This document shows, in pieces, positions 13,011 to 40,065 of a stretch of 64,000 nt of DNA. Numbering within the stretch: position 1 is the stretch's first letter; each line of letters opens with the position of its first letter. The notes beneath the pieces are model-generated. The model was not told the DNA's origin and ran no database searches. It worked only from the letters and a program-made list of their open reading frames with translations. Position numbers and translations under genes: made by a program. The stretch comes from an uncultured Alistipes sp. (GTDB lineage: Bacteria > Bacteroidota > Bacteroidia > Bacteroidales > Rikenellaceae). The DNA is taken from assembly GCA_944321185.1 (NCBI GenBank), contig CALUKH010000006.1:19594-83593 (forward strand). Direction: 5' to 3'.

Positions 13011-13036
13011 CCCGAGGGTTTCGTCCTGTCCGGCAA

Positions 13037-13200
13037 GGCAGGTCTTCTGACTCGCTCCCGCCGCACGCCTTCCCGTTCCAGCCGGAACAGTGGCAAAGAG
13101 TGTGCAGCCTTTTGCGGAGCTTACAGCTACGGGCATAGTCCCTGATTCACACAGGAGTTCCCTTTTGATCCCGGGCCGGCAGCCGCCGGCTGGGAACCTT
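13037..13200 (-). ncRNA. Cobalamin (AdoCbl) riboswitch upstream of nrdD
   Basis: Read on the minus strand, the element starts AAGGTTCCC and contains AAAAGGGAACTCC, CTGTAAGCTCC, the core GCCACTG, GGGAAGGCG and the end GAGTCAGAAGACCTGCC. These are the conserved blocks of the cobalamin riboswitch in their usual order and spacing. It lies between the nrdD promoter and the nrdD start, leaving about 195 nt for an expression platform. Bound cobalamin is expected to turn the gene off. Confidence 0.95.
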
Positions 13201-13209
13201 GCTCGGGAA

Positions 13210-13239
13210 CAAAGATAGGAAGAGTTTCGGGACGGACAA
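13210..13239 (-). promoter_or_regulatory. nrdD: Promoter for the riboswitch-nrdDG transcript
   Basis: On the minus strand TTG (13237-13239), 19 nt, then TATCTTTG (13210-13217) match the Bacteroidota -33/-7 pattern. The predicted start site is a few bases before the riboswitch. Confidence 0.8.
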
Positions 13240-22506: not shown

Positions 22507-22689
22507 TCGTTTTCGGCCGGGCTGTTTCCGGGCAGCCGGGCTTTGTCCCCGATGGGTCGGGTTCCGCCTGTCGGTTGTCTGACGCCGTCCTTCGGTGAAG
22601 ATCCTCTTCCCCCGGGCGGGGTGTCGGCGAAAGGAGTGAAGATTCTCGTCGTACCCCATTCTCCGCAGGGTTTCGGGCTGAAGGGCGAC

Positions 22690-22857
22690 GGCAGGTCTTC
22701 TGACTCGTTACCGGACCGACGCCTTCCCGTCCCTGAGGGGGACAGTGGCCGAGCGTGTCGGGCCGCGGGTTGTAACTCACAGCAGCGGGAACTGTTGCCG
22801 ATTTGCACGGCATTCCCATTTAATCCGGACGACCGTGCGGCCGCCCCGGAACCGTTG
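22690..22857 (-). ncRNA. Cobalamin riboswitch upstream of the BtuG-like operon
   Basis: On the minus strand the element reads AACGGTTCCGG, TTAAATGGGAA, GCTGCTGTGAGTT, the core GCCACTG, GGGAAGGCG and GAGTCAGAAGACCTGCC. This is the complete ordered set of cobalamin-riboswitch blocks. About 270 nt separates it from the BtuG-like ATG. It should shut off uptake-gene expression when cobalamin is abundant. Confidence 0.95.
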
Positions 22858-22862
22858 CGCGA

Positions 22863-22870
22863 CAAAAGTA
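22863..22870 (-). promoter_or_regulatory. -7 box (TACTTTTG) for the btu operon
   Basis: TACTTTTG on the minus strand lies directly before the first riboswitch block, placing the transcription start at the edge of the aptamer. The -33 box is unclear. Confidence 0.65.
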
Positions 22871-22913
22871 CGCTTTTTTCCGCGGAACACCATGACGTTT
22901 CCGGCAAAAAGGT

Positions 22914-29377: not shown

Positions 29378-29425
29378 GTTGCAAGCGTTTTTTTTCGGTT
29401 TGGCGATCGGATCCGGACCTTTTTG

Positions 29426-29539
29426 CGGCGAGATTCTTCCGGCGCGGCGAGATTCTTCCGGCGACGGGGGACCTTCCAGCGGCGACATCCTCTCAGCGGC
29501 ATTCTCTCTGGGGCGGTCTTCTCAGCGGCGACCGATCGG
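29426..29539 (-). repeat. Degenerate short repeats in the zupT leader
   Basis: The 5' leader contains two near-perfect copies of CGCCGGAAGAATCTCGCCG-like sequence and further looser copies built on TCGCCGCTGAGAAG or GCCGCTGAGAGG. Units are about 14-21 nt with drift. No gene overlaps this stretch. Confidence 0.6.
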
Positions 29540-29720: not shown

Positions 29721-29752
29721 TTTGCACACCCGCCGAAAAACCCCTACCTTTG
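29721..29752 (+). promoter_or_regulatory. pyrC: Promoter of the pyr operon
   Basis: TTTG (29721-29724), a 20-nt spacer and TACCTTTG (29745-29752) form a near-ideal Bacteroidota promoter. The predicted start near 29757-29760 leaves a leader of about 165 nt before pyrC. Confidence 0.88.
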
Positions 29753-29779
29753 TACCAATTATAGCAAGACCCGAATCCC

Positions 29780-29881
29780 ATGACGTGCAACCCCCATATC
29801 CCGATGGCGCAGAAGTTCTGGCAAAAGGATTATTGGTCGGGGTTCCAGTCTCCGAAGGATGCGGGTTTTATCGTTTGTTAG
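29780..29881 (+). CDS. Putative 33-residue leader peptide of the pyr operon
   Basis: The frame starts about 22 nt after the predicted transcription start and encodes MTCNPHIPMAQKF, then a WQKDYWSGF stretch, ending AGFIVC. Its UAG stop is the first three bases of the terminator stem. The mRNA just before the stop is U-rich (GGGUUUUAUCGUUUG), where polymerase could pause when UTP is low. This matches the layout of the E. coli pyrBI leader. Translation is not proven and no Shine-Dalgarno sequence is visible. Confidence 0.55.
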   Translation: MTCNPHIPMAQKFWQKDYWSGFQSPKDAGFIVC

Positions 29882-29910
29882 GGTAACTGTTTCGGTTGCC
29901 CTATTTTTTT
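29879..29910 (+). terminator. Attenuator (intrinsic terminator) in the pyr leader
   Basis: TAGGGTAAC (29879-29887) pairs with GTTGCCCTA (29895-29903), with one G-U pair and a 7-nt loop. Seven T follow directly. It ends 14 nt before the pyrC ATG, so it must be passed for the operon to be expressed. Confidence 0.85.
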
Positions 29911-29924
29911 ATGTGACCGAGCCG

Positions 29925-31202
29925 ATGAAGACCTTTTATGAAAATGCCGAAATCTACCGCGGAGGACACTTCGCGAAGGGGCGTCTGGTCGTGGAAGAGG
30001 GGCGTGTAGTAGCCGATTGCGAGCCGCAGCCGGGTGACCGGCGGGTGGATCTTTCGGGACTGTACCTCGTTCCGGGACTGGTCGACGTGCATGTCCACCT
30101 GCGCGAACCGGGATTCCCGCAGAAGGAGACCATCGCCACGGGTACGGCCGCCGCAGCCCATGGAGGCTACACGACGGTCTGCTCGATGCCCAACCTGAAT
30201 CCGGCCCCCGATACGCCCGAACACCTCGAAGAACAACTCGCGCTGATCCGCCGCGATGCCCTGGTGCGGGTGGTTCCCTACGGTACGATCACCCTCGGAC
30301 AGCGCGGCTGCGGCGAACTGGCCGATTTCGAGGCGCTGGCCCCCTACGTGGCGGGCTTCTCGGATGACGGACGCGGCGTGCAGTCGGCCGAACTGATGGA
30401 GGAGGCGATGCGGCGTGCCGCGGCGGTCCACAAACCGATTGTGGCCCACTGTGAGGTCGACGAACTGCTCCGTGGCGGATATATTCATGACGGTGTCTAT
30501 TGCCGCGAGCATGGCCACCGGGGCATCTCGTCGGAGAGCGAGTGGCGGCAGGTCGAGCGCGACATCGCCCTGGCCGAACGCACCGGCTGCCAGTATCACG
30601 TCTGCCACGTCTCGACCAAAGAGAGCGTCGAACTGGTGCGTCAGGCCAAGGCACGCGGACTGAAGGTGAGCTGCGAGACCGGCCCCCATTACCTGCTGCT
30701 CTGCGACGAGGATCTGCAGGAGGACGGACGCTTCAAGATGAACCCGCCGCTGCGCAGCCGTGAGGATCGCCAAGCACTGATCGAAGGGATTCAGGACGGC
30801 ACGATCGAGGCCATCGCCACGGACCACGCTCCGCATACGGCCGAAGAGAAGTCGCGCGGTCTGGAGCGCAGCGCCATGGGCATCGTCGGTCTGGAGACGG
30901 CCTTCCCGCTGCTGTATACATACCTGGTCAAGCGGGGCGTCCTGACGCTGGAACGCCTCGTGGAGCTGATGTCGGTCCAGCCGCGGCGGCTCTTCTCGCT
31001 CGAGGGGGGCATCGCGACGGGCGACAAGGCCGACTTCACGGTGCTGGATCTCCATGCCCACTATGCCATTGACCCCGCGACGTTCCGCTCGAAGGGCCAT
31101 GCCACGCCGTTCGCCGGCTGGGAGGTCGACGGACGTGCGGTGATGACCGTCGTGGACGGCCGCGCGGTTTACGATACGCTGACAACGAATTCAATCAGAT
31201 AA
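29925..31202 (+). CDS. pyrC: Dihydroorotase (PyrC, class I type)
   Basis: This 425-residue zinc enzyme cyclises N-carbamoyl-aspartate to dihydroorotate, the third UMP step. The ATG at 29925 follows the attenuator. Metal ligands H56 and H58 lie in VDVHVHLREPG. Later motifs are IVAHCE, YHVCHVSTKES and the catalytic-aspartate region AIATDHAPHT. The length and the HVHLREPG motif fit the amidohydrolase-type dihydroorotase of multi-enzyme pyr operons rather than E. coli PyrC. First gene of the operon. Confidence 0.96.
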   Translation: MKTFYENAEIYRGGHFAKGRLVVEEGRVVADCEPQPGDRRVDLSGLYLVPGLVDVHVHLREPGFPQKETIATGTAAAAHGGYTTVCSMPNLNPAPDTPEHLEEQLALIRRDALVRVVPYGTITLGQRGCGELADFEALAPYVAGFSDDGRGVQSAELMEEAMRRAAAVHKPIVAHCEVDELLRGGYIHDGVYCREHGHRGISSESEWRQVERDIALAERTGCQYHVCHVSTKESVELVRQAKARGLKVSCETGPHYLLLCDEDLQEDGRFKMNPPLRSREDRQALIEGIQDGTIEAIATDHAPHTAEEKSRGLERSAMGIVGLETAFPLLYTYLVKRGVLTLERLVELMSVQPRRLFSLEGGIATGDKADFTVLDLHAHYAIDPATFRSKGHATPFAGWEVDGRAVMTVVDGRAVYDTLTTNSIR

Positions 31203-31214
31203 GGACAGACAAGG

Positions 31215-32306
31215 ATGAAAGCATTTACGAAAAAGATCGTCCTGGAGGACGGCCGCGAGTTTTACGGATACGGTTTCGGATCCGACCGCGAGGCCATCAA
31301 CGAGATCGTCTTCAATACCTCGATGGTGGGGTATCAGGAGATCATGTCCGATCCGTCGTACACGGATCAGATGGTCGTGATGACCTACCCGCTGATCGGC
31401 AACTACGGTATGGCCGACGAGGATTACGAGACCAAGACGCCGACCATCGGCGGAATGATCGTCCGGGAGTACAACGACCTGCCGTCGAACTTCCGCTACA
31501 CGAAGACGCTCAACGAGGTCTTTGAGGAGTATGACATCCCGGCCATCTCGGGCATCGACACCCGGACGCTGACACGCATCATCCGCGACGAGGGCAGCCA
31601 GAAGGTGATCATCACCGACGCCGCCACGCCCCGCGACGAGGCTCTCGCCCGGCTGCGGGCCTACGAAATGCCCCACGACATGGTTTCGCGCGTGAGCTGC
31701 CGGAAACGCTGGCTGTCGCGCGTGGCCAACCACAAGTTCGACGTGGTGGCCATCGACTGCGGCATCAAGTACAACATCGTGCGGCAGTTGAACCACGTGG
31801 GTTGCAACGTCACGGTGATGCCCTACAACTCGACGCTGGAGGAGATCCTTGCCTTCCATCCCGACGGAATCCTCTTCTCGAACGGCCCCGGCAACCCGGA
31901 GGACGTACAGCCGGTCATCGAACTGATCCGCCGGCTGCGGGGACGCCTGCCGCTCTTCGGCATCTGCATGGGCCATCAGCTGATCTCGCTGGCCTACGGC
32001 GCGCGGACCTTCAAGATGAAGTTCGGCCACCGCGGCGCCAACCACCCGGTCAAGAACCTGCAGACGGGCAAGATCGAGATCACGAGCCAGAACCACAGCT
32101 ATGCCGTGGACATCGATTCGCTGAAGGGTACGGGGCTGACCCTTACGCATGTGAACCTGCTGGACGGTACGGCCGAAGGCGTGGAGTGCGCCGAGGAGCG
32201 GGTCTTCTCGACACAGTATCACCCGGAGAGCGCCGCAGGTCCCCAGGACAGCACCTATCTGTTCAATAAGTTCACCAAAATCATGGAGGAGTACAAAAAT
32301 GCCTAA
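31215..32306 (+). CDS. carA: Carbamoyl-phosphate synthase small subunit CarA
   Basis: This 363-residue glutaminase subunit supplies ammonia to CarB. The N-terminal half is the small-chain domain ([28 protein letters not shown]). The C-terminal half is a class I glutamine amidotransferase with nucleophile Cys251 in GICMGHQ and the His-Glu pair in YHPES. It starts 12 nt after pyrC and overlaps carB by 8 nt. Confidence 0.98.
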
Positions 32307-35300
32307 GAGAAAAGATATCAAGAAGGTGATGGTGATCGGGTCGGGCCCGATCGTGATCGGTCAGGCCGCGGAGTTCGACTACGCGGGCACGCAGGCCTGT
32401 CTGGCCCTCAAGGAGGAGGGATACGAGGTGATTCTGGCCAACTCGAACCCCGCCACGATCATGACCGATACGCACATTGCGGACAAGGTCTACATGGAGC
32501 CGCTGACGCTGGAGTACGTCGCCAAGATCATCCGCTACGAGCGTCCCGACGCTATTGTTCCGGGACTGGGCGGACAGACGGGTCTGAATCTGGCGGTGCA
32601 GCTGGCCAAGAAGGGCATTCTGAAGGAGTGCCAGGTGGAGATCCTGGGTACGTCGTTCGATTCGATCGAGCGGGCCGAGGACCGCGAACTCTTCAAGGAG
32701 CTGTGCCAGTCGCTGGGCGAACCGGTACTCCCGTCGGAGGTGGCCTCGTCGGTGGACGAGGCGGTGGAGATTGCCGCCAAGATCGGCTATCCGGTGGTGC
32801 TGCGTCCGGCCTTCACGCTGGGCGGTACGGGCGGCGGCTTTGCCGACGATGAGGCGCAGCTGCGCGAAATGATGCGCCATGCCCTGTCGCTCTCGCCCGT
32901 ACATCAGGTGCTTGTCGAGAAGAGTATCAAGGGATACAAGGAGATCGAGTTCGAGGTGATGCGCGACCACAACGATACGGCCATCAGCATCTGCTGCATG
33001 GAGAACATCGATCCGGTGGGCATCCATACGGGCGACTCGATCGTCGTGGCCCCGAGCCAGACGCTGACCAACAAGGAGTTCCAGATGCTGCGCGACTCGG
33101 CGCTGAAGATCATCCGTGCGCTGAAGATCGAGGGCGGCTGCAACGTGCAGTTCGCACTGGATCCGCTGTCGTTCAAATACTTCCTCATTGAGGTGAACCC
33201 GCGTGTGTCGCGATCGTCGGCCCTGGCCTCGAAGGCCTCGGGATACCCGATTGCCCGCGTGAGTGCGAAGATCGCCGTGGGGCTGACGCTCGACGAAATC
33301 CGCATCGCCAATACGCCGGCCTCGTTCGAGCCGACGCTGGACTACGTGGTGACGAAGATCGCCCGCTTCCCGTTCGACAAGTTCTCCGATGCCTCGAACA
33401 AGCTCGGCACGCAGATGAAGGCTACGGGCGAGGTGATGTCGATCGGCCGCACGATGGAGGAGTCGCTCCTGAAGGCCGTCCGCTCGCTCGAGACGGGCGT
33501 CTGCCACATCTACCACAAGAAGTTCGATTCGTGGTCGAACGACGACCTGCTCGACTACATCAAGATCGGTACGGACGACCGTCTGTACGCCATCGCACAG
33601 CTGATCCGCGGCGGAGTCGACCTGGCGCTGATCTACGACAAGACGAAGATCGACATGTTCTTCCTCGAGAAGTTCAAGAACATCGTCGAGTTCGAGAAGG
33701 TGATCCGCGCCCATCCGATGGACGTCGAGACGCTGCGCGACGCCAAGCGCATGGGCTTCAGCGACAAGTATATCGGTCAGCTGTGGGGCCTTTCGCAGCA
33801 TGAGATGTACCGTCTTCGCGAGAAGCACGATATCTTCCCCGTCTACAAGATGATCGATACGTGCGCCAGCGAATTCGACTCCTACGTGCCCTACTTCTAC
33901 TCGACCTACGAGCAGGAGAACGAGTCGAAGGTGAGCGACAAGAAGAAGATCATCGTGCTGGGTTCGGGCCCGATCCGCATCGGACAGGGCGTCGAGTTCG
34001 ACTACTCGACGGTGCACGCCATCTGGTCGATCCGCGAGGCGGGCTACGAGGCCATCATCATCAACAACAACCCGGAGACCGTCTCGACCGACTACACGAC
34101 CAGCGACAAACTCTACTTCGAACCGCTGACGGTCGAGGATGTGATGAACGTCATCCACCTGGAGCATCCGGAAGCCATCGTGGTGTCGCTCGGCGGACAG
34201 ACGGCCATCAACCTGGCCGAACCGCTGGCCGAGCTGGGCGTGCCGATCATCGGCACGGACTGCGAGGCGATCCGCAATGCCGAGGATCGCGGCTGCTTCG
34301 AGCGCATCATGGAGGAGCTGGGCATCCCGCAGCCGGAGGCCGAGGCCGTGACGGACATCGAAGCCGGCGTACGGGCGGCGGCACGGATCGGTTATCCGGT
34401 GCTGGTGCGTCCGAGCTACGTGCTGGGCGGCCGCGCCATGCAGATCGTCTCGAACGAGGAGCGGCTGCGCCACTACCTGCAGACGGCCGTGGAGGTGAAC
34501 GTCGACCAACCGGTGCTGGTCGACCGCTACATCCTGGGCAAGGAGCTCGAGGTTGATGCCATCTGCGACGGAAAGGATGTCTTCATCCCGGGCATCATGG
34601 AGCATGTCGAGCATACGGGTATCCACTCGGGCGACTCGATCAGCGTCTATCCGACCTTCAGCGTCAGCCAGCGGGCCAAGGACAAGATCATCGACTACAC
34701 GGTGCGGCTGGGTCTGCGGATCGGCATCGTGGGTCTGTACAACATCCAGTTCATCGTGGCGGGCGACGACGACGTCTATGTCATCGAGGTCAACCCGCGC
34801 TCGTCGCGTACGGTACCGTTCCTCTCGAAGTCGACCGGCGTGCCGATGGCCCACATCGCCACGCAGGTGATCCTGGGCAAGTCGCTGCGCGAGTTGGGTT
34901 ACAGCGAGGTCTACGGCCATGAGAAGGATCGCTGGTATGTGAAGGCTCCGGCCTTCTCGTTCGCGAAGATCCGCGGCATGGATTCCTACCTTTCGCCGGA
35001 GATGAAGTCGACGGGCGAGGCGATCGGCTACGACGACAAGCTGACGCGGGCGCTCTACAAGGCGCTGCAGGCCACGGGCATGCACGTCTCGAACTACGGA
35101 ACGATCTTCGTGACGATCGCCGATCAGGACAAGCCGCAGGCGCTGCCGCTCGTCAGACGCTTCTACGACCTGGGCTTCAACATCGAGGCGACGACCGGCA
35201 CGGCAGAGTTCCTGCGCGAGCACGGCATCCGCACGCGTACGCGCCGCAAGCTGAACGAGGGCAGCACCGAGATCATCGATGCCCTGCGTCAGGGACATAT

Positions 35301-35481
35301 CAGTTACGTCATCAATACGATCGACATCAACCAGCACAACACGCGCCTGGACGGTTATGAGATCCGCCGCACGGCCGTCGAGAACAACGTGACGGTCTTC
35401 ACGGCACTCGAGACGGTGAAGGTGCTGCTGGACGTGCTGGAGGAGATCACGCTGCGGGTCTCGACGATCGATGCAAAATAG
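32299..35481 (+). CDS. carB: Carbamoyl-phosphate synthase large subunit CarB
   Basis: This 1060-residue subunit makes carbamoyl phosphate from bicarbonate, ammonia and two ATP. It has two homologous halves, each with a preATP-grasp and ATP-grasp domain: [19 protein letters not shown] near residue 14 and [18 protein letters not shown] near 551. A C-terminal MGS-like allosteric domain ([20 protein letters not shown]) is the site where nucleotides such as UMP usually regulate. Length matches the family (about 1060-1075). Confidence 0.98.
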
Positions 35482-35496
35482 CGGGACCTGGAAGCG

Positions 35497-36237
35497 ATGT
35501 ACAAGAAGGGAATCTATCGCATCGAGGCGAACGAACGGCTGACGGAGACGGTCTGGCGCATGACGCTGACGGGCGACACGCAGTGGATCACGGCTCCCGG
35601 ACAGTTCGTCAACATCGCCCTCGAAGGCAAATACCTGCGTCGTCCGATCTCGGTGTGCGACTGGGACGAGGAACGGATCGTGCTGATCTACAAGGTAGTC
35701 GGCGAGGGTACGGCGCAGATGAGCCGCATGAAGGCCGGTGAGGAGCTCGACCTGCTGACGGGGCTCGGAAACGGCTTCTCGACGCGCAACGACGCCCGCC
35801 GGCCGCTGCTGGTGGGTGGCGGCGTGGGGGTGCCTCCCCTCTACGGACTGGCGCGGCAGCTGCTCGCGGCGGGCAAACCCGTCGAGGTGGTGCTGGGCTT
35901 CAACACCGAAAAGGAGATCTTCTATGAGGAGGAGTTTCGGCAGCTGGGCTGCGGTGTCACGGTGGCGACGGCCGACGGTTCGCGCGGCGTCAAGGGCTTC
36001 GTGACGACGGCCATCGCCGAGACCGGACTGAAATTCGACTATTTCTACGCCTGCGGACCGCTGCCGATGCTCCATGCGCTCTACAACGCCGTGGAGCAGG
36101 ACGGTCAGCTGTCGTTCGAGGAGCGCATGGGGTGCGGATTCGGCGCCTGCATGGGCTGCTCGTGCAAAACCAAGTACGGCAACAAGCGCATCTGCAAGGA
36201 GGGCCCCGTACTGGAGAAAGGAGAGATCATATGGTAG
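35497..36237 (+). CDS. pyrK: Dihydroorotate dehydrogenase electron-transfer subunit PyrK
   Basis: This 246-residue flavin/iron-sulphur subunit passes electrons from dihydroorotate oxidation to NAD. The FAD site is LRRPISVCDW, the NAD-binding loop is VGGGVGVPPLYGLARQL, and the 2Fe-2S ligands are in MGCGFGACMGCSCKT and RICKEGPVL. It is typical of the PyrDB/PyrK complex of anaerobes. It overlaps pyrD by 7 nt. Confidence 0.97.
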   Translation: MYKKGIYRIEANERLTETVWRMTLTGDTQWITAPGQFVNIALEGKYLRRPISVCDWDEERIVLIYKVVGEGTAQMSRMKAGEELDLLTGLGNGFSTRNDARRPLLVGGGVGVPPLYGLARQLLAAGKPVEVVLGFNTEKEIFYEEEFRQLGCGVTVATADGSRGVKGFVTTAIAETGLKFDYFYACGPLPMLHALYNAVEQDGQLSFEERMGCGFGACMGCSCKTKYGNKRICKEGPVLEKGEIIW

Positions 36238-37178
36238 AGAAACAGATCGCACAGAGCGAAACCACGCCGGGAATCGATACTTCTGTCGAGTTGTGCGGCC
36301 TGCGGCTGGACAATCCGGTCGTACCGGCCAGCGGCACGTTCGGCTACGGCAACGAATTCAAGGATTTCTACGACATCAACATCCTCGGGTCGTTCTCGTT
36401 CAAGGGGACGACGCGCGAGCCGCGCTTCGGCAACCCCACGCCCCGCATCGCCGAGTGTACGGCGGGCATGATCAACGCCGTGGGGCTTCAGAACCCGGGC
36501 ATCGATGCCGTGATCCGTCAGGAGTTGCCGCGTCTGCGGAGCTTCTTCCGCAAGCCGGTGATCGCCAACATCTCGGGCTTCTCGGTCGAGGAGTATGCCT
36601 ACTGCTGCGAGCGGATCGACAAGCAGGAGCAGGTTGGAATCATCGAGGTGAATGTCTCGTGCCCGAACGTGCGCCACGGCGGCATGTCGTTCGGTACGAG
36701 CCCCGAGGCGGCTGCCGAGGTGACGCGTGCCGTGAAGGCCGTGACCACCAAACCGGTCTTCATCAAACTCTCGCCCAACGTCACGGACATCGTCGCCATC
36801 GCCCGGGCCTGTGAGGAGGCGGGTGCCGACGGCATCTCGCTGATCAACACGGTGCTGGGCATGCGTATCGACGTGGCGCGCCGGCGTGCGGTGATCGCCA
36901 ATACGATGGGCGGATTTTCGGGCCCGGCGATCTTCCCGCTGGCCGTGCGGATGGTCTACCAGGTGGCCCGCGCCTGCCGGATTCCGGTCATGGGTTGCGG
37001 CGGCGTGCAGTCGGCGCGCGACGTGATCGAGATGATGATGGCCGGCGCCACGGCCGTGCAGGTCGGCGCCGCCAACCTGGTGAATCCCTACGCCTCGAAG
37101 GAGATTGTCGAGGCCCTGCCCGGCGAGATGCGCCGCCTGGGTATCGAACGTTTGTCGGATATTATCGGAATAGCTTGA
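36231..37178 (+). CDS. pyrD: Dihydroorotate dehydrogenase catalytic subunit, class 1B (PyrD)
   Basis: This 315-residue FMN enzyme oxidises dihydroorotate to orotate and works with PyrK. The ATG at 36231 overlaps the pyrK stop. Family motifs are [13 protein letters not shown], the catalytic cysteine in [16 protein letters not shown], and the FMN-phosphate loop [12 protein letters not shown] class 1B enzyme uses NAD, consistent with an anaerobic gut lifestyle. Confidence 0.98.
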
Positions 37179-37186
37179 AAAACAAT

Positions 37187-37891
37187 ATGGAACGAGACGT
37201 AATCATCGCCTGCGACTTCAAGTCCGCAGAAGACACCTTTCGCTTCCTCGACCTCTTCCGGGACGAGGCGCGCAAACCCTTTCTGAAGATCGGCATGGAG
37301 CTCTTCTACGCCGAGGGCCCGTCGATCGTACGGGAGATCAAGCGCCGCGGGCACAAGATCTTCCTCGATCTGAAGCTTCACGACATCCCCAACACGGTGA
37401 AGAAGGCGATGGCGGTGCTGTCGCGACTGGATGTGGACATGTGCAACGTCCATGCCGCCGGTACGATCGAGATGATGCGTGCGGCCCGCGAGGGGCTGAC
37501 GCGCGAGGACGGCACGCGTCCGCTGCTGATCGCCGTGACGCAGCTCACTTCGACCAGCGAGGAGCGCATGCAGCGCGAACTGTTGATCGGCGCCTCGATC
37601 AACGACACGATCGTCCACTATGCACGCAACACGCGCGAGGCGGGTCTGGACGGTGTGGTCTGCTCGCCGCTCGAGGCGGGAATGGTCCACGAGGCGTGCG
37701 GCCGTGATTTCCTGACCGTTACGCCGGGCGTTCGCTTCGCCGACGGTGACGTGGCCGACCAGGTGCGCGTGACGACCCCGGCCCGGGCCCGCGAAATCGG
37801 CTCGGACTTCATCGTCGTCGGACGCCCGATCACGGCGGCGCCGGATCCCGTGGCGGCCTACCATCGCTGCGTGGCCGAATTCGTGGGTTGA
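37187..37891 (+). CDS. pyrF: Orotidine-5'-phosphate decarboxylase PyrF
   Basis: This 234-residue TIM-barrel enzyme converts OMP to UMP, the last step. The start is the ATG at 37187, giving [13 protein letters not shown]. The catalytic Lys-Asp array is [13 protein letters not shown], and the phosphate-binding loop is FIVVGRPIT. Length fits the type 1 family. It lies 8 nt after pyrD. Confidence 0.97.
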
Positions 37892-37960
37892 CGGTGGCGG
37901 CGAAGTCCGTTGCGGCGGGCTTTTTGATGCGTGACCGTGTATGAAAAAAGACGAAAAAAC

Positions 37961-38218
37961 ATGAAACCCGTAAAATTGTTCTATCTGAAGACGTGCCCCT
38001 TCTGCAAGAAGGCGTTGCGTTACATCGAAGAGGCCAAGAAGGCCCATCCGGAGCTGGCACCCGTTGAGATCGAGATGATCGAGGAGTCGGAGGAGCCCGA
38101 CGTGGCCGATCAGTATGATTACTACTACGTGCCGACCTTCTACGTCGACGGCGTGAAGGTTCACGAAGGGGGCATCTATCCCGACGAGGTGGAGAAGATC
38201 CTGCGTCAGGCCCTCTAA
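37961..38218 (+). CDS. Small thioredoxin/glutaredoxin-like protein inside the pyr operon
   Basis: This 85-residue protein has the redox motif C-P-F-C in LFYLKTCPFCKKAL and the cis-proline motif YYVPTFYVDG, so it is a single compact thioredoxin fold. The start at 37961 follows a 69-nt gap after pyrF, and pyrE follows 115 nt later. It is cytoplasmic, with no signal. Nothing in UMP synthesis needs such a protein. A role in reducing the PyrK iron-sulphur or PyrD flavin partners, or in redox control, is possible but only inferred from position. Confidence 0.88.
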   Translation: MKPVKLFYLKTCPFCKKALRYIEEAKKAHPELAPVEIEMIEESEEPDVADQYDYYYVPTFYVDGVKVHEGGIYPDEVEKILRQAL

Positions 38219-38234
38219 TAGGGGCGGCCGGTCG

Positions 38235-38272
38235 GCGGATGTCAAACGGGGCCGGGTGCGGATGTCAAACGG
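38235..38272 (+). repeat. 15-bp direct repeat (period 23) between the Trx-like gene and pyrE
   Basis: GCGGATGTCAAACGG occurs at 38235-38249 and again at 38258-38272. The 8-nt filler after the first copy (GGCCGGGT) resembles the sequence after the second (CTCCGGGC), so this looks like a two-unit tandem duplication. Confidence 0.8.
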
Positions 38273-38333
38273 CTCCGGGCGTGCGGCCGGGCAAGCATGA
38301 GAACAAACAGAAAAAGAGCAGCATAAAAAAATT

Positions 38334-38966
38334 ATGGAAAAAGCTATTGCAAAGGATTTGCTGTCGATCGGTGCGGTCTTCCTGCGCCCCGAACAGCCGT
38401 TTACGTGGGCCAGCGGTATCAAGAGCCCGATCTATTGCGACAACCGTCTGACGCTGACGGCTCCCGAGGTGCGCAAGCACGTCGAGGCGGGGCTGGCGGA
38501 GATCGTCCGCACGAAATACCCCGAGGCCGAGGTGCTGATGGGGACCTCGACGGCCGGCATCGCCCATGCCGCCATCACGGCGACGATCCTCGATCTGCCG
38601 ATGGGCTACGTCCGCTCGGGATCGAAGGATCACGGCCGCGGCAACCAGATCGAAGGCCGTCTGGAGAAGGGCCAGAAGGTTGTCGTCATCGAGGATCTGA
38701 TCTCGACGGCCGGATCGTGCATCGAGGTGGTCAATGCCCTGCGTGAGGCCGGAGCCGAGGTGCTGGGCGTGGCGTCGATCTTCACCTACGGGATGAAGAA
38801 GGGGCTGGACCGCCTGCGCGAGGCCAACGTCGTGAACTACAGCCTCTCGAATCTCGACGCACTGGTCGAGGTGGCCGCCGAGGAGGGATACATCAAGCCC
38901 GAGGACAAGGAGCGTCTGCTGAAGTTCCGCGACAATCCGTCGGACGAATCGTGGATGAAACACTAA
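38334..38966 (+). CDS. pyrE: Orotate phosphoribosyltransferase PyrE
   Basis: This 210-residue enzyme joins orotate and PRPP to make OMP. The PRPP-binding loop is [13 protein letters not shown], and the flexible catalytic loop is around [29 protein letters not shown] is the N-terminal substrate region. It is followed 13 nt later by pyrB. Confidence 0.97.
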
Positions 38967-38979
38967 ATCGCACATAACC

Positions 38980-40065
38980 ATGCGACATCTGATCGATCCT
39001 ACCGATCTGACGGTCCAGGAGACCGAACAGATCGTGGCCCTGGCCGAAGACATCATCGCCAACCGGGCCAAGTACAGCGAAGCCTGCAAGGGAAAGAAAC
39101 TGGCTACGCTCTTCTACGAACCCTCGACGCGTACGCGGTTGAGCTTCACCTCGGCGATGCTCGAACTGGGCGGCCAGGTCATCGGCTTCTCGGACGCCAA
39201 CTCGTCATCGGTATCGAAGGGTGAAACGGTGGCCGACACGGTTCGCGTGATCCGCTGCTTCGCCGACATCATCGCCATGCGCCACTTCAAGGAGGGGGCG
39301 CCGCTCGTGGCGTCGCAGTACGCCGGAATTCCGGTCATCAACGCCGGCGACGGCAGCCACTCGCATCCGACGCAGACCCTGACCGACCTGTTGACGATCA
39401 AGCGCGAAAAGGGACGTTTCGACCACATGACGATCGGCTTCTGCGGCGACCTGAAGTTCGGACGTACGGTTCACTCGCTCATCAAGGCGCTGTCGCGCTA
39501 CGAGGGGATCAACGTCATCCTGATCTCGCCCGAGGAGCTGCGTCTGCCCGACTACATGCTGCAGGAGATGCAGGCCAACTCGCGCATTACGTTCCGCGAG
39601 GTGCGCACGATGGAGGAGGTGATGCCCGAGCTGGACATCCTCTACATGACGCGCGTGCAGAAGGAGCGCTTCCTCGACGAGGAGGAGTTCGACCGCGTGA
39701 AGAACAGCTTCGTGCTCAACCCCGAGAAGCTGCGCACGGCCCGCAAGGATATGATCATCCTCCATCCGCTGCCGCGTGTGAACGAGATCACGCGTGCGGT
39801 GGACAACGATCCGCGGGCCGCCTATTTCCGCCAGGTGGAGAACGGCAAGTTCGTACGTATGGCGTTGATTCTGACGCTGCTGCGCTGGGCCGACGAGAAC
39901 AAGCCCTTTGCCCATACGCCGGTCTTCAACGAGGAGTACATCGTCAACGAACTGGTCTGCCCGAACCGTCGCTGCATCTCGGCCACAGAGGATGTCGATC
40001 AGTTGTTCCGGCGGATGCCCGACGGCACGTGCCGCTGCGCCTATTGCGAGGCCAAGGCCCGTTAG
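38980..40065 (+). CDS. pyrB: Aspartate carbamoyltransferase catalytic chain PyrB with fused PyrI-like zinc ribbon
   Basis: This 361-residue enzyme condenses carbamoyl phosphate and aspartate. The catalytic part shows [11 protein letters not shown], the SVSKGET loop, [14 protein letters not shown] and [11 protein letters not shown]. It is about 50 residues longer than E. coli PyrB. The extension (about 323-361) begins VCPNRRCIS and has C327-x4-C332 and C353-x2-C356. This resembles the zinc domain at the end of the regulatory chain PyrI, which contacts catalytic chains. The PyrI nucleotide-binding domain is absent and no pyrI gene is nearby. Last gene of the operon. Confidence 0.95.

Follow-up and report, generated by a model that had tools for sequence, protein, structure and literature searches.

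A short open reading frame ending at a conserved terminator upstream of Alistipes pyrC: probably a UTP-sensing attenuator working like that of Escherichia coli pyrBI

In Escherichia coli, the pyrBI operon and the pyrE gene are well known to be controlled by transcription attenuation. The pyrBI leader contains a short open reading frame (ORF), pyrL, of 44 codons (locus L361 of our sample), which is read through the terminator hairpin and ends just before pyrB. At pyrE, the translated part is a full gene, rph, whose intact frame ends with a TGA codon 10 nt before the terminator stem, with TTTTT in between (L362). In strain MG1655, the truncated rph stops 39 nt before the stem; this lesion lowers pyrE expression and constitutes a natural experiment on stop position. 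The pyr operons of Gram-positive bacteria are likewise attenuated at a terminator that controls the full operon, a system that depends on the protein PyrR and on an antiterminator. In E. coli, according to the accessible parts of PMC4824070, ribosomes repress terminators located up to ~27 nt from a stop codon; a terminator in the first 100 bp of an ORF is functional except where pausing allows the ribosome to close the gap, for which pyrBI serves as the example. Within the Bacteroidota, leader-peptide attenuation has been suspected at amino-acid operons of Flavobacterium psychrophilum (PMC9723704) and in long 5′ UTRs of B. thetaiotaomicron, e.g., that of a hypothetical-protein gene (PMC7366714). 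These cases share with the locus described here the phylum and the presence of short ORFs in 5′ leaders, but name no pyr operon in the accessible parts of either paper. Motifs of upstream ORFs have also been described, with no pyr case from Bacteroidota in the accessible text (PMC8632094, PMC6429828). The initial annotation of the locus knew of no description of such a mechanism in Bacteroidota. In the openly licensed literature, as far as its texts are accessible, no attenuator of a pyr operon was found for this phylum (weak evidence of novelty).

The window analyzed here, i.e., the whole stretch of 64,000 nucleotides, is part of a draft genome, G000, of 1.97 Mb (42 contigs). The closest named relatives of this genome belong to Alistipes, its pyrC being 96% identical to that of an uncultured Alistipes record. 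On its plus strand, pyrC (dihydroorotase, 29925..31202; TIGR00857, 395.6 bits at a cut-off of 279.05) is the first of eight genes for UMP synthesis. The others, identified like pyrC by matches to NCBIfam models, are carA (31215..32306; TIGR01368), carB (32299..35481; TIGR01369), a pyrK-like gene for an electron transfer subunit (35497..36237; NF000799, 242.7 bits, below the cut-off of 314), pyrD (36279..37178; NF005574, TIGR01037) and pyrF (37187..37891; NF001273, TIGR01740), both with approximate starts, pyrE (38334..38966; TIGR00336), and pyrB (38980..40065; TIGR00670). All eight genes presumably reside on one transcript. A gap of ~440 nt without an assigned gene (37892-38333) separates pyrF from pyrE. 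At 29425-29462, upstream of the pyr promoter, GCGGCGAGATTCTTCCGGC occurs as two adjacent copies, close to where a zupT-like gene of the minus strand starts, and two cobalamin riboswitches are found on the minus strand at 13020-13216 and 22673-22871 (106.7 and 108.4 bits, respectively). In its best segment, Alistipes pyrC shares 56-66% identity with dihydroorotases from records that carry the label Clostridia or relatives (among L048 to L111), and only ~30% with the dihydroorotase of most other Bacteroidales sampled; this difference suggests a transferred gene that may have been brought under a new leader.

The leader preceding pyrC begins with a promoter at 29721..29752 on the plus strand, from which transcripts are expected to start a few nucleotides downstream. 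Its upstream part, TTTG at 29721-29724, is presumably the second promoter element. The downstream element TACCTTTG (29745-29752) follows the pattern TAnnTTTG, which is named as the sigma A consensus for Flavobacterium in the accessible text of PMC9723704. An ORF of 33 codons plus TAG then extends from 29780 to 29881 (ATG at 29780-29782, TAG at 29879-29881). Directly 5′ of its stop lies a U-rich stretch (29866..29878), the proposed pause region, followed by a terminator hairpin (29879..29903), whose first three bases are the TAG stop codon itself, and by the U7 tract of an intrinsic terminator (29904..29910), the end of which is 14 nt away from the pyrC start codon at 29925. The promoter, the 33-codon ORF, the UAG at the base of the hairpin, the seven U residues and the spacing to pyrC had all been listed in the initial annotation and can be read directly in the sequence. 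The U-rich stretch noted there was likewise confirmed, since T accounts for 48% of the 21 nt 5′ of the stop and for 21% of the ORF body. A hairpin does lie at the stop codon, but its size required correction, as it folds into 11 pairs with a 3-nt loop rather than into 9 bp.

The geometry had been equated with that of E. coli pyrBI, and the likeness extends to the short leader ORF, the U-rich stretch and the intrinsic terminator preceding a pyrimidine gene. The placement of the stop codon, however, is intermediate between pyrBI and rph-pyrE and nearer to the latter: unlike pyrL, Alistipes leader ORFs stop between −11 and +9 nt from the start of the stem (97 counted leaders), much as the rph frame ends close to a U-rich spacer and a terminator before a pyr gene. 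In Alistipes, a short ORF like that of pyrBI goes together with a stop located at the hairpin, as at pyrE. The layout differs from rph-pyrE in that the translated part is a dedicated ORF of 20-45 codons across Alistipes, and from pyrBI in that the leader precedes a UMP operon starting with pyrC. E. coli PyrL and the Alistipes leader peptides show no similarity by eye. Some Alistipes leaders, e.g., L133, share the stem GGCGACT/AGTCGCC with the E. coli pyrE attenuator.

A search across the genus (120 relatives plus the window's own genome) located pyrC in 117 of 121 genomes, and 110 pyrC upstream regions were examined. Seven genomes with partial or weak pyrC matches (G108, G082, G109, G018, G052, G097, G102) were left out of the counts; leaders are nevertheless present by eye in the first three, one with a GTG start. 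A terminator hairpin followed by a T-run occurs in 106 of the 110 regions. The TAnnTTTG element was found upstream of the hairpin in 103 of 110 regions, and in 106 of 106 once the hairpins of L012, L118 and L157, for which the automatic choice had taken another hairpin, were set by the motif. Among the four regions without a hairpin, L024 and L123 lack upstream DNA at contig borders. In L129 (G079), which has pyrC and pyrB on one contig, the scan detected no leader hairpin, and L120 (G002) is counted as hairpin-less with its leader situated ~0.87 kb upstream of pyrC (L425), so that the count of 106 is unchanged. Repeated stretches lie within the segment separating leader and pyrC in this genome, in which, rated as 90% complete, no pyrB was found. 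An ATG-started ORF of at least 20 codons whose stop falls between −14 and +10 nt relative to the first stem G/C is present in 97 of the 106 leaders, compared with 10.6 expected from dinucleotide shuffles of the same leaders, which come from related genomes and hence are not independent cases. Nine leaders carry no such ORF (L022, L122, L160, L172, L181, L186, L187, L188, L190). By reading, L022 has a GTG-started ORF of 33 codons ending at the stem, L186, L187, L188 and L190 have GTG starts and ORFs leading into or through the hairpin, and the ORF of L181 passes through it. The leaders were sorted by eye, not from a tree, into groups A to E. Relatives carrying pyrC retain the ORF, the stop position, the U-rich end and the hairpin despite widely different leader peptides, and the retention of these four features across Alistipes supports the attenuation reading of the initial annotation. 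Since the peptides of groups A to D differ widely, the layout has outlasted much of the peptide.

The hairpin itself bears the marks of a conserved terminator. An alignment of 59 leaders out of the 106 (58 rows being distinct) shows pairing in 97.5% of the cells of a 7-bp core, and 54 cells are changed on both sides, compared with 17.3 (sd 6.7) in shuffles, none of 500 being as high; sliding the partner by 1-3 columns lowers pairing to 28-54%. Two of the five covariation measures are weak, namely the pairs with double changes (6 against 3.8 expected; 2 of 500 shuffles as high) and the pair types beyond the first, which are not unusual (12 against 10.6, reached by 88 of 500 shuffles). The median ΔG of the leader terminators is −15.0 kcal/mol. 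A generic terminator sequence can be rejected, as the group A stem pattern, allowing one mismatch at most, matches the own genome once, at pyrC; in all, 16 matches were obtained in 13 of 61 genomes, and those in G054 (C8), G002 (C3) and G009 (C99) fall on contigs other than that of pyrC.

Selection on the ORF as a reading frame is indicated by substitution patterns. With the last eight codons excluded, pN/pS in frame amounts to 0.43 in group A, 0.56 in group B and 0.52 in group D, as opposed to 1.01/1.13, 0.90/1.35 and 0.73/1.13 in the other two frames (96 ORFs kept of the 97 counted). The ORF therefore is under coding selection in the three groups with frame controls, while group C gives a weaker in-frame value of 0.69-0.79 from 5-10 pairs, without frame control. 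In the 23 aligned leaders of group A, indels within the ORF body comprise 3 nt; the exceptions are L015 and L016, in each of which a gain of 1 nt offsets a loss of 1 nt a few bases earlier. Layout and coding signal fit an ORF that would be translated up to, into or across the terminator. T content is 0.54-0.58 in the last 18 nt before the stem, compared with 0.20-0.40 further upstream, and the bias extends to third codon positions, where T makes up 0.44 of the last seven codons against 0.22 of the body in group A (28 ORFs) and 0.69 against 0.33 in the other groups (68 ORFs). Measured over the last 21 nt, T content exceeds that of the ORF body in 95 of 96 ORFs; L028 is a clear exception, lacking a U-rich end, and a run of four T is absent from the last 25 nt in 17 of the 96. 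The U-rich end is thus selected at the nucleotide (RNA) level.

Other 1-nt shifts in the aligned group A leaders are located at this U-rich end, and either resulting frame reaches a stop in the first 8 nt of the hairpin: TAG at the first stem bases in one, TAA a few bases later in the other. The window leader terminates in the TAG frame; TAA is the stop used by most of its group A relatives. The shifts change the C-terminal peptide while the stop position stays, and the final residues accordingly vary among relatives (IVC, ILFY, IIVLLG).

Taken together, the retained frame, an end tied to the hairpin, the U-rich nucleotides and the conserved terminator are best explained by ribosome-controlled attenuation. 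By default, RNA polymerase would reach the terminator before the first ribosome, the hairpin lying only ~100 nt after the leader start codon, and transcription would end. When UTP is scarce, polymerase would linger in the U-rich stretch, which would allow the leading ribosome to close up; once polymerase moves on, this ribosome would be at or near the stop codon and cover the 5′ arm of the hairpin. The terminator could then not fold, and pyrC to pyrB would be transcribed. Judged from sequence comparison, it is very probable that ribosomes translating the leader control transcription of the UMP operon by attenuation. Polymerase pausing, ribosome occlusion and UTP as the natural signal are steps that we infer, and the full UTP-sensing model, in which the leader probably works like that of E. 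coli pyrBI, is likely.

The alternative that survives best assigns the action to the leader peptide itself, a nascent-chain arrest peptide that would sense a metabolite and hold the ribosome on the hairpin, as known for TnaC and SpeFL. The pN/pS values of 0.43-0.56 do imply some constraint at the protein level, and stretches resembling FWQQDYWSG recur within group A. In addition, 37 of 96 leader peptides (20 of 28 in group A, 17 of 68 in the others) contain, within residues 3-12, a motif picked after inspection of the data, [NHDY]I[SPTALV], which only one of 96 contains within residues 13-22. This motif lies at 29786-29815 in the window and recurs also in otherwise dissimilar peptides; the attenuation model gives no account of it, and its recurrence would count against a purely passive peptide. 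In known arrest peptides, however, it is the C-terminal residues that matter most, and in Alistipes these vary and are even read in another frame between relatives. That the last residues differ while the end point of the ribosome hardly moves argues against a C-terminal arrest peptide, and beyond the N-terminal motif the peptides of groups A to D are barely alike by eye. An arrest peptide is therefore considered unlikely.

Two further alternatives are other types of switch. In amino-acid attenuation, stalling at scarce codons, e.g., those for glutamine, the substrate of CarA, would toggle between an antiterminator and the terminator. Neighboring Gln codons are present in many group A ORFs, and in L029 as well as in L170, L171, L174 and L175 of group D, complementarity of the leader to the 5′ stem arm exceeds that of most shuffles (z −2.0 to −2.8); an antiterminator may thus exist in L029 and some group D leaders. 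An antiterminator over the whole set is nevertheless rejected: complementarity to the 5′ arm is at chance across the 106 leaders (mean z 0.12 for 29 leaders of group A, 0.13 for 77 others), and no codon run common to the groups was seen, which makes this mechanism very unlikely. A terminator controlled by an aptamer or by PyrR, with an incidental ORF, would share with the Gram-positive systems the control of a full pyr operon. Without their terminators, the leaders do fold slightly better than shuffles (mean z −1.45), and group A contains a second, weaker helix within the ORF (window 29791-29842, columns 41-95 of alignment A2, with a small hairpin inside). This helix is 89.6% paired, with 15 double-change cells against 5.7 expected and none of 500 shuffles as high; its weaker measures are reached by 30 of 500 shuffles for pairs and 266 of 500 for types. 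The attenuation model leaves it unexplained; as a guess, it might be a pause hairpin. Taken alone, the leader of the window has an unremarkable folding energy (z −0.64 for 29759-29955). Known Rfam riboswitches and leader RNAs were rejected, there being no match at the gathering level at the leader and two sub-threshold ones with E-values of 1.5 and 2.9. PyrR control was rejected on one model (NF003549), for which none of 61 genomes exceeds the cut-off and 46 of the 61 have weak matches below it; 6 of 14 known genomes exceed the cut-off in a control of this model. Conservation concerns the ORF and the place where it ends, and the leaders on average do not pair with the 5′ arm beyond chance; an aptamer- or PyrR-controlled attenuator is highly improbable. 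A scan of the genome sample for further attenuators returned two weak candidates without an ORF; since it also missed the known attenuator of the window, its outcome proves nothing.

The distance between stop codon and terminator sets the pyr leader apart from ordinary genes. In 860 kb of Alistipes DNA (the window plus 40 stretches from three genomes), with ORFs of at least 150 amino acids and the pyr terminator excluded, terminators follow a stop codon within 14 nt in 3 of 58 cases, two of which are the two strands of a single two-way hairpin in L349, and within less than 20 nt in 4 of 58, with a mode at 20-30 nt. The leader terminator is hence placed where ordinary genes avoid it. Such a stand-off of ordinary terminators from stop codons is as expected where ribosomes follow polymerase. 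The Bacteroidota are absent from the phyla listed for runaway transcription, and the string ‘Bacteroid’ is absent, in the accessible text of PMC13323073; the literature search, within the accessible texts, yielded little on coupling of transcription and translation in this phylum. The stop-to-stem distances and this list fit coupling in Alistipes, short of proving it. The accessible text of PMC4833913 describes leader ORFs as aiding reinitiation and gives a peak at 11-14 bp for Bacteroidetes; here, in contrast, 43 nt separate the leader stop from the pyrC start, and a terminator lies between them. The idea that the ORF is simply a small-protein gene with its own terminator, pyrC being expressed by unregulated read-through, draws on the coding selection but can be dismissed as most improbable, given the terminator position just described, the wide differences of the peptide between groups and, off pyrC, stem-pattern matches in G054, G002 and G009 only, each with a mismatch (the search for the pair of ORF and hairpin itself was confined to regions upstream of pyrC).

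Outside Alistipes, the layout recurs in the other genus of the family that was sampled (G223, L252). Around pyrC genes of the Alistipes type, raw counts without a chance expectation give a hairpin at 10 of 14 loci (13 labelled Bacteroidia or lower, plus L252) and the promoter-ORF-hairpin arrangement at 6 of 14, three of which are not U-rich (L082, L084, L108). In Porphyromonas canoris (L044), the ORF apparently reads through the hairpin, as judged by eye. Around the distant dihydroorotase of other Bacteroidales (~30% identity), a hairpin was found at 1 of 28 loci and the ORF layout at none of 28. For pyrB of other families, 73 places exceeded the cut-off, three of which were not included, and 66 of 70 loci were located. 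A terminator lies within 260 nt upstream of pyrB at 37 of these 66, and a short leader ORF ends at it in 7 of the 37, a raw count without a chance expectation; the leaders of L306, L365 and L366 are similar by eye, the ORF of L366 reading through. At 21 of the 37 loci, the stop of a longer ORF (at least 60 codons) lies 2-23 nt before the stem, in 20 cases at less than 20 nt (limit 60 nt), compared with 1 of 15 ordinary terminators so placed (limit 150 nt) in 351 kb of such genomes, once four pyrB terminators recognized by sequence had been removed. In several families of Bacteroidales, pyrB follows a gene of ~450 codons whose stop is located 14-23 nt before the terminator, which resembles E. 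coli rph-pyrE (L302, L304, L314, L316, L319, L412 and similar loci). The upstream protein of L412, the only one tested, gave a marginal match to a CobW-type P-loop protein. In L385, a pyrB leader of Bacteroidales, a T/C-rich stretch ~30 nt before the hairpin encodes FFFFP, a resemblance to the FFFP of the E. coli peptide PyrL.

Stems of the form GCGRC/GYCGC occur in 13 of 37 pyrB terminators and in 4 of 34 terminators of other families, 3 of these 4 being pyrB terminators; the narrower GCGAC/GTCGC occurs in 1 of 107 terminator-like hairpins of the Alistipes sample. The stem GGCGACT/AGTCGCC is seen at E. coli pyrE (L362), at some Alistipes pyrC genes (L133) and in some pyrB leaders of Bacteroidales (L302, L319), a recurrence for which shared ancestry may account. 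The broad pattern GGCGRCY..RGYCGCC was present in 14 of 14 genomes, at 1-6 places each, and a backward control in 6 of 14, so that the pattern alone is not specific. It is a tentative and rather doubtful proposition that UTP-sensing, ribosome-timed attenuation is general for pyr genes of Bacteroidales, working either with a dedicated ORF (at the Alistipes pyrC operon and at pyrB of several families) or with the end of a gene preceding pyrB as in rph-pyrE, and that the GCGAC/GUCGC stem reflects functional constraint rather than chance or descent.

If the UTP-sensing attenuation model is true, it would explain how UMP synthesis is controlled in a genus without a PyrR over the cut-off, and would suggest that the strategy of pyrBI and pyrE arose more than once. 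Since the leader would work only with a ribosome close behind polymerase, it would also constitute comparative evidence of coupling between transcription and translation in Bacteroidota, and would provide a ready reporter for such coupling in a major phylum of the human gut.
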